This document shows positions 33,579 through 38,877 of a stretch of 50,829 bases of DNA, one piece after another. Numbering within the stretch: the first letter of the stretch is position 1; each line of letters begins with the position of its first letter. A model generated the notes under the pieces. It saw only the letters and a program-made list of their open reading frames with translations. It was not told the DNA's origin and did no database searches. The stretch is from Pseudomonadales bacterium (lineage in GTDB: Bacteria > Pseudomonadota > Gammaproteobacteria > Pseudomonadales > Azotimanducaceae). The stretch is taken from positions 1 through 50,829 of the forward strand of contig JASMJM010000143.1 in NCBI GenBank assembly GCA_030749725.1. The letters are read 5' to 3'. The position numbers and the translations under genes were made by a program.

Positions 33579-34206
33579 ATGAAAGAAAAACTGATGGGCA
33601 GCTTAGCGGTCTTGGTGATAAACATTTCCTCCATCTGTCTGATACTCGGACCCATTGCGGTTTACGCACAGGACATGTTTATCCCGGAGGACACGGATCA
33701 GTATAGCCCTGGAATCGGTATCGGTGAAACATTCCCGAACATCCGCGCCAGGCAGGGTCAATCTGAAAAGCGCACCGTGAACGAGTTTATGGGAACGAAG
33801 GGGCTGGTAGTCTATATGAACAGATCGGTCGACTGGTGACCCTACTGCAAGAAGCAGCTCGTGCAGCTGCAGGAAAGCCTGGCTGACTTCGAACAGTCGG
33901 GCCTCGGGGTCATCGCCATTACCTACGATGCACCACAGAAACAGCAGCCCTTTATAGATAAGTTCAATATCCAATATCCAATATCCAATCCTGTCCGATA
34001 TCGAAGCCACGACGGTTAAGGCCCTCGGCATTCTCAACCAACAATACAGCGAAGGGCAGCCTGCCTACGGCATACCCTATCCCGGAATTTACGTGTTGGA
34101 TACTAACAAGAAGATTGTGGGGAAAGTCTTTATTGAAGGCTACAAGCAGCGCGTGTATGCAAGCTCTGTTCTGGCCTATGCGCGCAAGGTGCTGGCATCA
34201 AACTGA
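33579..34206 (+). CDS. probable selenocysteine redoxin (UxxC), with a heptamer frameshift
   Basis: An AhpC/TSA-type thioredoxin-fold protein read through an in-frame TGA. Residues 1-86 give a signal/anchor helix, then GIGIGETFPNIRARQG and MNRSVDW; the TGA at 33837-33839 is codon 87; the frame then continues PYCKKQLVQLQESLADFEQSGLGVIAITYD. The TGA sits where redoxins have the first Cys of CxxC, giving U-P-Y-C. A SECIS-like hairpin follows 14 nt later. Further on, a tandem CCAATAT heptamer at 33971 shifts the frame; removing one unit continues into ILSDIEATTVKALGILNQQYSEG through the TGA stop at 34204. Likely a periplasmic thiol/peroxide redoxin. No sel genes are in the window. Confidence 0.72.
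33854..33870 (+). promoter_or_regulatory. SECIS-like hairpin downstream of the in-frame UGA
   Basis: GCAGCT (33854-33859) pairs perfectly with AGCTGC (33865-33870), closing a CGTGC loop. The loop starts 20 nt after the TGA and has a G in its first two bases followed by U. These fit general bacterial SECIS rules for stem length, spacing and apical G. The stem is short and made of simple GCAGCT sequence, so chance cannot be excluded. Confidence 0.5.
33971..33989 (+). repeat. CCAATAT heptamer repeat causing a frameshift
   Basis: Two full CCAATAT units and a partial CCAAT, preceded by a near unit (TCAATAT at 33964). Loss of one 7-bp unit restores the redoxin reading frame. A repeat unit that is not a multiple of three can switch a gene on and off by slippage. 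Confidence 0.85.
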
Positions 34207-36546: not shown

Positions 36547-37479
36547 ATGTCCAGATCAGAAATAAGCCCTGATCAATTGATCGACCGGGAGATTGGCCCC
36601 GTAACCATTCTGTTTGGCCATGAGAACGGCAAGTATCCGGATGGCAACGCCGTCCTCGTATCGGGCGCGCATGAGACTATCATAATCGATCCATGTCTTG
36701 GCGTTGTTGCCAGGAAGGACCGATTGCCCCGGGTAGACCGGGTGTTCCACAGCCATGCTCACGAAGATCATCTGTCCGGCAGTCATCTGTTCCCGGACGT
36801 TCCCTGGTATGTGCACGGTGAAGACCTGGCAGGTCTCCAGTCGCTGGACGGCATGATGGCCATGTATGGTGTAGAGGGACCGGGTGTGGGAGAGTTCAAG
36901 AAGATGGTAACGACCCAGTTCAACTATCTGCCGAGAGAAGATGCCCATACCTTTGTCGATGGGGACCTTTACGATCTCGGTGGTGTAACCATTGAAGTGC
37001 TGCACACCCCCGGGCATACGGGAGGTCATTGCTCCTTCCTGATCGACTGGGGAGCAACCGAAGGCAGATTTGTGTTCCTGAGTGACATCGAACTGACCGG
37101 CTTTGGGCCCTACTACGGGGATGCGTGTTCATCCCTGGTGAGTTTTGAGAAGAGCATCGAGAGGCTCAAGCACATCGATGCTCGCTGGTGGCTCACCTTT
37201 CACCACAAGGGATTATTCGAGCCGCGAGAACATTTCCTTCTGAAACTGGAACAATATGGAGGGGTCATTAAAAGCAGAGAGCGCCGCTTGCTGGAGTTCC
37301 TCGCCGAACCGCGTTCAATGGATGAAATCGTTGCCCATCGTTTTGTCTACCGACCGGGAGTTGTTGACGGTAACATGGTGGACAACACAGAACGTCGCAG
37401 TATGGCAAGACACCTGGAGCGATTGCTCCAGTCCGGCACCGTTATCGCCATGGATGATTCCCGCTACCGGATTGTTTAA
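36547..37479 (+). CDS. MBL-fold metallohydrolase
   Basis: About 310 residues. The metallo-beta-lactamase motif HSHAHEDHLSG (H-x-H-x-D-H) is intact, as are HTPGHTGGHCSF and the Asp in FLSDIELTG. The C-terminal winged-helix-like part resembles the LACTB2/glyoxalase-type tail. The ATG at 36547 follows GGAG by about 10 bases, and a GTG at 36541 is possible. It is followed by the nitroreductase 12 bp away, so the two are likely co-transcribed. Confidence 0.9.
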   Translation: MSRSEISPDQLIDREIGPVTILFGHENGKYPDGNAVLVSGAHETIIIDPCLGVVARKDRLPRVDRVFHSHAHEDHLSGSHLFPDVPWYVHGEDLAGLQSLDGMMAMYGVEGPGVGEFKKMVTTQFNYLPREDAHTFVDGDLYDLGGVTIEVLHTPGHTGGHCSFLIDWGATEGRFVFLSDIELTGFGPYYGDACSSLVSFEKSIERLKHIDARWWLTFHHKGLFEPREHFLLKLEQYGGVIKSRERRLLEFLAEPRSMDEIVAHRFVYRPGVVDGNMVDNTERRSMARHLERLLQSGTVIAMDDSRYRIV

Positions 37480-37491
37480 GGGGAATGAAAG

Positions 37492-38163
37492 ATGGCTATC
37501 GATGTTGACATTGAAACGATTGGCGAAGACGTCAGGATGCTCGAAGGTATTCGGACCACTCGGGCGATCAGACGGATCAAACCGGATCCCGTACCCAACG
37601 AATTGATACGAAAGGTCTGTGAGGCGGGCACCTTCGCTCCCAACGGTGGCAATCGACAGCCCTGGTTCTTTATCGCGGTAACGGAAAAGGAGAGGAGAGC
37701 CTATATTGCCAATCTCTATCGGAAGACGTTCACCCGTTATATTGCTACGCCGCTCAAGGCGGCAGAAGACCCCGCGTATCCGGATGCCAAACGACGCAAT
37801 ATGAACGCGGCCATCTGGCTGGCGGAACACCTTCATGAAGTGCCGGTACATCTGTTTGTGGCGGGATGGACCAGGCGTGGTGCGCCACAGACTCAGGCTC
37901 TGTTTCCCGCGATTCAGAATATCCTTCTGGCGTGCCGCGCCGTCGGGCTGGGAGCTTCCCTTACTACCGCGCACGTGGCCTACGGCAAACAGATCGACAG
38001 CTATCTGGGGCTGGCGGAGGATACGCCGACCATCGCGCTCATCCCAATCGGCTGGCCTATCGGTAAATACGGCAAACCGCCGAGACGGTCGGTGGATGAA
38101 TGTCTGTTCTTCGAGGAATATGCCGGCGCACCGCTGGCGCCCAGGCAACAAGCTGTACACTGA
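37492..38163 (+). CDS. nitroreductase-family FMN protein
   Basis: 223-residue nitroreductase fold protein: EGIRTTRAIRRIKPDPVP (FMN phosphate-binding Arg pairs), VCEAGTFAPNGGNRQPWFFIAV and ALIPIGWPIGKYGKPPRR at the C-terminus, all typical. It would reduce nitroaromatics, quinones or halogenated phenols using NAD(P)H. It lies between two MBL-fold genes with 12-bp spacings, so the three form an apparent operon. Confidence 0.9.
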   Translation: MAIDVDIETIGEDVRMLEGIRTTRAIRRIKPDPVPNELIRKVCEAGTFAPNGGNRQPWFFIAVTEKERRAYIANLYRKTFTRYIATPLKAAEDPAYPDAKRRNMNAAIWLAEHLHEVPVHLFVAGWTRRGAPQTQALFPAIQNILLACRAVGLGASLTTAHVAYGKQIDSYLGLAEDTPTIALIPIGWPIGKYGKPPRRSVDECLFFEEYAGAPLAPRQQAVH

Positions 38164-38175
38164 GAGGACTTGACG

Positions 38176-38877
38176 ATGGCACATTGGAAACCCAACTGGC
38201 CGGTGGAGGTCAATCACGTCGAGTCCGACCTCGATGTCTTTAGTACGGTTAACATCAAGAGCGGTCGCATTTATCACAGCTATTTTCTGACGCACAAAAG
38301 AGGCAACACACTCTTCCATGGGCCGGACAGCCGAGCCTTCTATGATGAGTTCTCGGGTTTTTTCGAGGACCATGGCGGCATACAAAACCACCTTTTTACG
38401 CATGCACCCGAGACCTCGAAGCCCGGGTGCGAGATCCCCGTAGAGAAATGGAATACAACCAACTGGCTCTCCGAACTCGATTATCCACACCTCAGGAAGG
38501 ACGTCAGAGAAGTCCAATTCAGGAACCCAAAGAGCAGCGGCCGCTGGATACCGAATATCAAATGCATTCCACTGCCGGGCCATATGCCGGGATTTACAGG
38601 CTATCTCGTGAAGTCCGCCGGAAAGTCCTACCTGATCAGCGGCGATTTCGTCATCGTCGGCGCCGGGGGCCGTGGCTGGCGGGCACCGGTTCCGACTGAA
38701 CGAATGAGCAGCTATGCACTCAGCAGTATCGAAACGGTAAGAGAGCTGAAATTCGATGCCTTTCTACCTAATCAATCGATAAAGGAACGCCCAATTCCCT
38801 GGCCGAGAGAGCGGAAGGAAGAAATCCTCAACGGCGGAGAATCTTTCGTCAGGAGGAAGTTCCGCATCAAAGCTTAG
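38176..38877 (+). CDS. MBL-fold-like protein lacking the HxHxDH motif
   Basis: 233 residues. The fold is suggested by NHLFTHAPETS where HxHxDH should be, CIPLPGHMPGFTGYLV (GHTPG-like), YLISGDFVIVG (the conserved Asp strand) and the late FDAFLPNQS. Most N-terminal metal ligands are missing, so it probably binds little metal or acts non-enzymatically. AGAGGA sits 7 bases before ATG 38176; the TTG six bases earlier is less likely. Its C-terminal part is duplicated at about 41730. Confidence 0.8.
   Translation: MAHWKPNWPVEVNHVESDLDVFSTVNIKSGRIYHSYFLTHKRGNTLFHGPDSRAFYDEFSGFFEDHGGIQNHLFTHAPETSKPGCEIPVEKWNTTNWLSELDYPHLRKDVREVQFRNPKSSGRWIPNIKCIPLPGHMPGFTGYLVKSAGKSYLISGDFVIVGAGGRGWRAPVPTERMSSYALSSIETVRELKFDAFLPNQSIKERPIPWPRERKEEILNGGESFVRRKFRIKA

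Follow-up and report, generated by a model that had tools for sequence, protein, structure and literature searches.

A probable selenocysteine-containing redoxin whose reading frame is broken at a 7-bp repeat in the assembly

The stretch of DNA analysed here (the window, 50,829 nucleotides) carries a gene that we take, with a probability of roughly 0.87, to be a member of a selenocysteine (Sec)-containing redoxin family in which an in-frame UGA is decoded by way of a SECIS, and whose frame is broken at a 7-bp repeat in the assembly. The redoxins of this family have an AhpC/TSA fold and the active site U-P-[YF]-C, and are probably exported or anchored in the membrane. A hairpin 15-31 nt past the UGA would be bound by SelB with Sec-tRNA-Sec, and UGA 33837 would then be read as Sec; the Sec/Cys pair of intact relatives most likely goes through a selenenylsulfide cycle outside the cytoplasm, whereas the window copy, frameshifted past the active site, would give a truncated product without the conserved-Pro loop and the last core strands.

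The UGA codon and its hairpin

Read from ATG 33579, codon 87 is TGA 33837 in the context D-W-UGA-P-Y-C, followed by KKQLVQLQ and later by TAA 34017 (Table 1). The first-pass annotation had placed this in-frame TGA at the first Cys of a CxxC in a redoxin, and the placement holds: the N-terminal part of the window gene scores 54.4 bits against PF00578 (cut-off 26) and 28.2 bits against PF08534 (cut-off 26.6). The frame-0 product comprises a signal or anchor segment and an AhpC-TSA domain with UPYC. It reaches no further than roughly two thirds of the way through the fold, and about a dozen residues at its end, before TAA 34017, are out-of-frame sequence. A single frame across 33579-34206, as had been proposed, does not exist in the assembly, since frame 0 ends at TAA 34017 and 34206 belongs to the stop of another frame. 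The latter encodes the loop YGIPYPG, the last strands and the helix, with the conserved C-terminal stretch YPILSDIEATTVKALGILNQQYS...YGIPYPGIYVLD...KVLASN.

Table 1. Features of the redoxin locus in the window.
Feature	Coordinates	Strand	Remarks
Frame-0 reading with TGA as Sec	33579..34019	+	146 residues; ends at TAA 34017-34019
Lys-rich start and hydrophobic segment, probably a signal peptide or an anchor in the membrane	33579..33668	+	Judged from the sequence by eye
UGA codon, U87, first position of UPYC	33837..33839	+	Same-site TGA in relatives
Codon of Cys90, partner of U87	33846..33848	+	Aligned with the PVC cysteine in BCP 2cx3
SECIS hairpin core	33854..33870	+	Arms 33854-33859 and 33865-33870; loop CGTGC 33860-33864
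Triple exact 7-bp tandem repeat, site of the frame change	33965..33986	+	Homology and codon-usage scan
C-terminal redoxin part, shifted by +1 against the frame of the N-terminal part	33958..34206	+	82 residues; stop TGA 34204-34206

The UGA is conserved throughout the taxonomic family of the window's genome. A redoxin match was found in 174 of 206 genomes of this family (the window's own counted), and TGA occurs in 149 of the 150 matches listed (window included; one also contains TAG), the remaining one having TAA only; these matches were counted by hand, and weaker matches beyond the 150 lie outside the count. Inspection of 69 relatives, each from a different genome (29 plus 40, the latter hand-picked among the matches listed), showed TGA at the same site in 68 of them, 67 with the motif WUP[YF]C and one (L161) with WUSFC. 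A 27-row set, A1, combined the N-terminal part of the window gene with 26 relatives taken from the first 29. The single exception among the 69, L148 on the reverse strand of genome G052, has TGG (Trp) at the Sec codon, an in-frame TAA downstream and the motif WPLC. selB scored over the cut-off in 35 of 41 sampled genomes of the family, and G052 is among the six without a match (E 1e-60), which fits a loss of the Sec trait behind this TGG/TAA copy; L148 looks like a gene in decay after that loss. A counter-case is G135 (85% completeness), another of the six, which nevertheless has a TGA copy (L037), while the remaining four selB-less genomes have no redoxin match among the matches listed.

Homologues with Cys at the same site exist in other bacteria. 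From 256 relatives in named genomes we kept 80 loci, whose 81 sites are encoded by TGC (63) or TGT (18); the scan pattern demanded Cys at this position, and these numbers therefore speak to the existence of Cys homologues and not to their rate. Among 142 other genomes of the class, 44 gave a match at E 1e-12, and the 52 matches listed from these 44 comprise one with TGA (anywhere in the match), three with TAG or TAA and 48 free of stops, in a hand count that may include some other redoxins. A tree with 149 rows, built by a quick method with SH-aLRT support only, places the window among 21 rows that group together at support 100, namely 17 Sec rows (the window, L016-L030 and L164) and four Cys rows (L045-L048, titled Halieaceae, Seongchinamella, Alteromonadaceae and Halioglobus). 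The Sec/Cys label requires four changes on this tree, two of them being forced by well-supported branches. L050 and L051, on two contigs of one Hirschia MAG, encode an identical Cys-homologue protein, reflecting either duplication or redundant assembly. Five of the genes flanking the redoxin in the window (two GNAT, ClpP, methyltransferase and M28) matched none of the 149 loci L016-L164 at E 1e-3, although the redoxin query matched all 149. This is a weak test of neighbourhood, as the flank at many loci ranges from a few hundred bases to no more than 1.5 kb (up to 3 kb for loci from the Cys scan).

The first-pass annotation had supposed that the cell makes selenocysteine, and had held that the absence of sel genes from the genome, or of Cys from this site in homologues, would count against its reading; both are present. 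Profile searches of the window's own genome recovered selA on contig C78 (527.7 bits), the adjoining selB (450.9 bits), selC (tRNA-Sec) on C74 (69.8 bits; called by ARAGORN as tRNA-SeC with anticodon tca) and selD on C37 (343.2 bits). In 14 control genomes, selA, selB and selD each exceeded the cut-off in two, and the tRNA-Sec model in five. The selD gene contains one in-frame TGA (ARTCGUAAKIG), and SelD of this genome is, from the TGA in CGUAAKIG, probably a Sec protein itself. A weaker match to the SelD model, on C101 (40111-40869), reached 101.3 bits, below the cut-off of 125, and presumably belongs to another, AIR-synthase-like family. Elsewhere in the genome (contig C33, about 1438-1905) lies a peroxiredoxin with an in-frame TGA in a TPNU motif, probably a second selenoprotein gene.

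Downstream of the UGA lies the hairpin GCAGCT-CGTGC-AGCTGC, with a stem beginning 14 nt and a loop beginning 20 nt past the codon and arms at +15 to +20 and +26 to +31 separated by the 5-base loop. The 6-bp stem with a CGTGC loop noted in the first pass is confirmed, and its five inner pairs are kept in 67 of 68 Sec loci (67 relatives and the window; L148, with TGG, and L161, with WUSFC, were missed by the motif and omitted), compared to 28.0±4.1 of 68 after synonymous-codon shuffling (maximum 40 in 300 rounds). Pair +18/+28 is GC in 49 and AT in 15 of these loci, and pair +19/+27 is CG in 40 and TA in 28; pair +15/+31 fails in two loci and an inner pair is broken in one. In a set of 30 distinct sequences, both sides had changed in 35 cells; shuffled sequences gave 11.1, and none of 500 shuffles reached as high, whereas neither the number of pairs with a double change (476 of 500 shuffles as high) nor that of pair types (441 of 500) rises above the shuffles. 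In Cys homologues the inner pairs occur at 18 of 81 sites, against 14.5±3.1 after shuffling (maximum 24). The second base of the loop is G in the window and in all 67 relatives measured, compared to 29 of 81 Cys homologues. The hairpin coincides with the codons for a conserved QLVQLQ, but the idea that it is a by-product of these codons was rejected on the synonymous shuffles and on the Cys homologues.

Folding the mRNA after the UGA, as had been suggested, gave a divided answer. The 21-nt core by itself forms the hairpin in all 68 Sec loci (-9.0 kcal/mol for the window), as it does in 26 of 81 Cys homologues. When the 48 nt downstream of the UGA are folded, the minimum-energy structure includes the hairpin in 55 of 68 Sec loci and 19 of 81 Cys homologues, and the window is not among the 55: its 48 nt, folded alone, prefer another pairing. 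No Rfam family matched the window at the gathering threshold. The case for a SECIS rests on covariation.

The proposal that the UGA encodes Sec is thus borne out by the same-site TGA in 68 of 69 opened relatives, the covarying hairpin and the sel genes; the accompanying remark that a Cys codon becomes TGA only by a transversion is correct, though weak evidence. One could hold that UGA 33837 is an ordinary stop or nonsense mutation and, alongside the frameshift, one of two lesions in a single pseudogene, given that this copy does bear a second disruption, but the conservation of the UGA at the same site, the covarying SECIS and the full sel machinery in the genome leave this reading hardly any probability. 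A nonsense mutation was rejected on family-wide conservation together with SECIS covariation, and at the level of the family the pseudogene reading is practically refuted.

The frame break at the tandem repeat

The idea of a working selenoprotein gene at this locus in its present state fared less well, as the frame is broken downstream of the UGA. When the intact relative L017 was searched against the window's own genome, it matched the gene in two pieces lying in different frames, 33666-33995 (51% identity) and 33973-34197 (57%), and the family profile splits likewise, into 33594-33986 and 33970-34197. A Viterbi frame scan based on codon usage, trained on 17 long ORFs from the window (one of which, 37315-38583 on the minus strand, is probably a poor training ORF, as the scan itself calls plus-strand genes there), switches frame between 33969 and 33986. 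The repeat beginning at 33965 is the sole exact tandem array of at least three copies with a unit of 5-12 bp in the 50.8-kb window. From the UGA the frame stays open for 60 codons in the window, compared to 110-141 codons in all 67 relatives measured, in each of which it reaches the C-terminus of the family; in the window it does not, and the copy contains no complete PF00578 domain in a single frame. The conservation of the redoxin on both sides of the UGA, claimed in the first pass, therefore holds for the protein letters but not for one frame, the two sides lying in different ones. The search with L017 found no intact second copy in the genome, the next matches being 31% and 25% identical, the latter to the TPNU peroxiredoxin.

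As assembled, the window copy cannot encode the whole protein. In the AlphaFold model (pLDDT 93.1) of L045, a Cys homologue with 50% identity across 105 residues, the part lost in the window corresponds to strands E140-142, E172-176 and E181-187, the conserved-Pro loop and the C-terminal helix, and because these elements are missing, the truncated product should not fold as a complete redoxin. Most likely, the frameshift either arose recently by slipped-strand mutation or represents a strain variant.

That the gene is intact in the living cell, and the frameshift stems from misassembly or from a minority allele taken into the consensus, is a serious competitor to which we give somewhat less than an even chance. 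The assembly consists of 173 contigs at 96.6% completeness with no 16S found, and is probably a metagenome bin; both halves of the gene are still conserved, past the active site the N-terminal half meets no stop in its frame before the repeat and the C-terminal half none before its end, and the genome has no other close copy. The repeat array, however, measures 21-22 bp, which ordinary reads are long enough to span, and in our reading of the codon-usage scan all other same-strand frame changes are gene boundaries, so that a single within-gene same-strand switch across the window argues against an error-ridden contig. Were the frameshift an assembly error, the 'broken' half of our reading would fall. 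Far less probable is that the two frames, which overlap at the repeat and are both conserved, are fused by programmed ribosomal frameshifting, as all 67 relatives measured make do with a single frame and inspection by eye revealed no recognised slippery signal; we consider this scarcely credible. Only slightly better placed, and still very improbable, is the notion that the repeat is a contingency (phase-variation) switch, at which slipped-strand changes in repeat number toggle the selenoprotein gene within the population; if true, the bacterium would reversibly control a selenium-dependent redox enzyme. We thus retain a Sec-encoded redoxin whose frame is broken at the repeat.

Domain family and likely function

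The intact relatives L016 and L017 match PF00578 with 72.1 and 72.9 bits, and PF08534 exceeds its cut-off in four of four intact homologues scanned; PF00578 outscores PF08534 in all five proteins compared. No NCBIfam model scored over its cut-off for the window pieces or for six intact homologues (four Sec, two Cys). The best sequence-profile match is ResA 3c71 (1.8e-13), followed by BCP 2cx3 (4.2e-13). Aligned with 2cx3, the family has its second Cys on the PVC cysteine, which we take to be the peroxidatic Cys, its first Cys on a Ser, and a Pro opposite an Arg to which we ascribe a catalytic role. A fold search with the Cys-homologue model placed peroxiredoxins on top, above ResA, including Bcp4 3hjp (Z 20.1, rmsd 2.6, 157 aligned) and AhpE 5id2 (Z 19.2, rmsd 2.3, 151 aligned).

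Judged by eye, the hydrophobic segment at the N-terminus of the window protein makes export or membrane anchoring likely; residues 2-21 form a helix in the AlphaFold model of a Cys homologue. Five Acidobacterial Cys homologues (L049, L053, L054, L058 and L061) carry a C-terminal DsbD_N fusion, over the Pfam cut-off in four of them (L053 scores 23.3 against a cut-off of 25), a hint that DsbD_N may be a reductant or partner of the redoxin.

Two functions can be weighed on these data. Thiol:disulfide exchange outside the cytoplasm is favoured by the N-terminal hydrophobic segment, the ResA profile match and the DsbD_N fusions. A peroxidase, in which Sec at the place of the Thr/Ser of a peroxiredoxin TxxC attacks the peroxide and Cys90 resolves, with roles reversed, would agree with the peroxiredoxins at the top of the structural matches, with PF00578 as the best Pfam model and with the second Cys on the PVC cysteine of 2cx3 and the first on Ser, yet the Pro opposite the BCP Arg, ResA 3c71 as the best profile match and the DsbD_N fusions, which fit thiol-disulfide exchange, make it an unlikely reading. 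The family is most likely a thiol:disulfide oxidoreductase acting outside the cytoplasm, a redox role assigned by homology.

Relation to known selenoproteins and redoxins

The family amounts to a redoxin subfamily that no NCBIfam model captures over its cut-off. In one bacterial family its members nearly always encode Sec, and their SECIS, which lies within a conserved coding motif, shows unusually clean covariation. Such genes would be shortened by gene calling in which UGA counts as a stop only, and the window copy adds the caution that a correct recoding call does not amount to a whole gene.

The first-pass annotation had called the selenoprotein new, which applies to the member but not to the kind. 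Sections of two reviews describe Prx-like thiol:disulfide oxidoreductase selenoproteins of PF00578 with UxxC (PMC13188914; PMC9312934) as well as redoxin-family UxxC selenoproteins, the latter as PF08534 in PMC13188914 and without a Pfam name in the corresponding part of PMC9312934. Prx-like 1 and Prx-like 3 selenoproteins, the latter assigned to pfam08534 with UxxC, appear in the text of the ocean (GOS) survey (PMC2398784), and a UXXC Prx-like family in that of the Sargasso Sea paper (PMC1088965). The main text of PMC12013277 contains no word beginning with redoxin and neither AhpC nor UXXC, and we found no literature pairing selenoproteins with Woeseiaceae or Halieaceae.

ResA/TlpA proteins are extracytoplasmic and have a W-C-x-x-C active site, and the profile of the window family matches 3c71 at 1.8e-13; however, they rank structurally below the peroxiredoxins (4nmu at rank 13), and the NCBIfam ResA model yields 34.9-53.1 bits where listed, against a cut-off of 170. 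The SelL-related redox protein model NF040769 has the redoxin core in common with our family, but the window scores 25.6 bits and the six intact homologues 22.1-47.0, against a cut-off of 120. The TxxC/TxxU motif of canonical peroxiredoxins is absent, the window gene having UxxC, in contrast to the TPNU of the Sec-peroxiredoxin of its own genome. With redoxin-family selenoproteins (PF08534, UxxC) the N-terminal part shares the UxxC and a PF08534 match, although the window family scores better with PF00578. Closest are the Prx-like selenoproteins (PF00578, UxxC/UxxU; GOS Prx-like 1), whose descriptions share with the window gene the Pfam domain and a UxxC with Sec first; the window subfamily differs in a conserved N-terminal stretch resembling DMFV..D.DAFDPG, and the window copy in its frameshift. 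We conclude that the window gene adds a new member to the known UxxC kind of selenoprotein, arguably within a subfamily that has no name.
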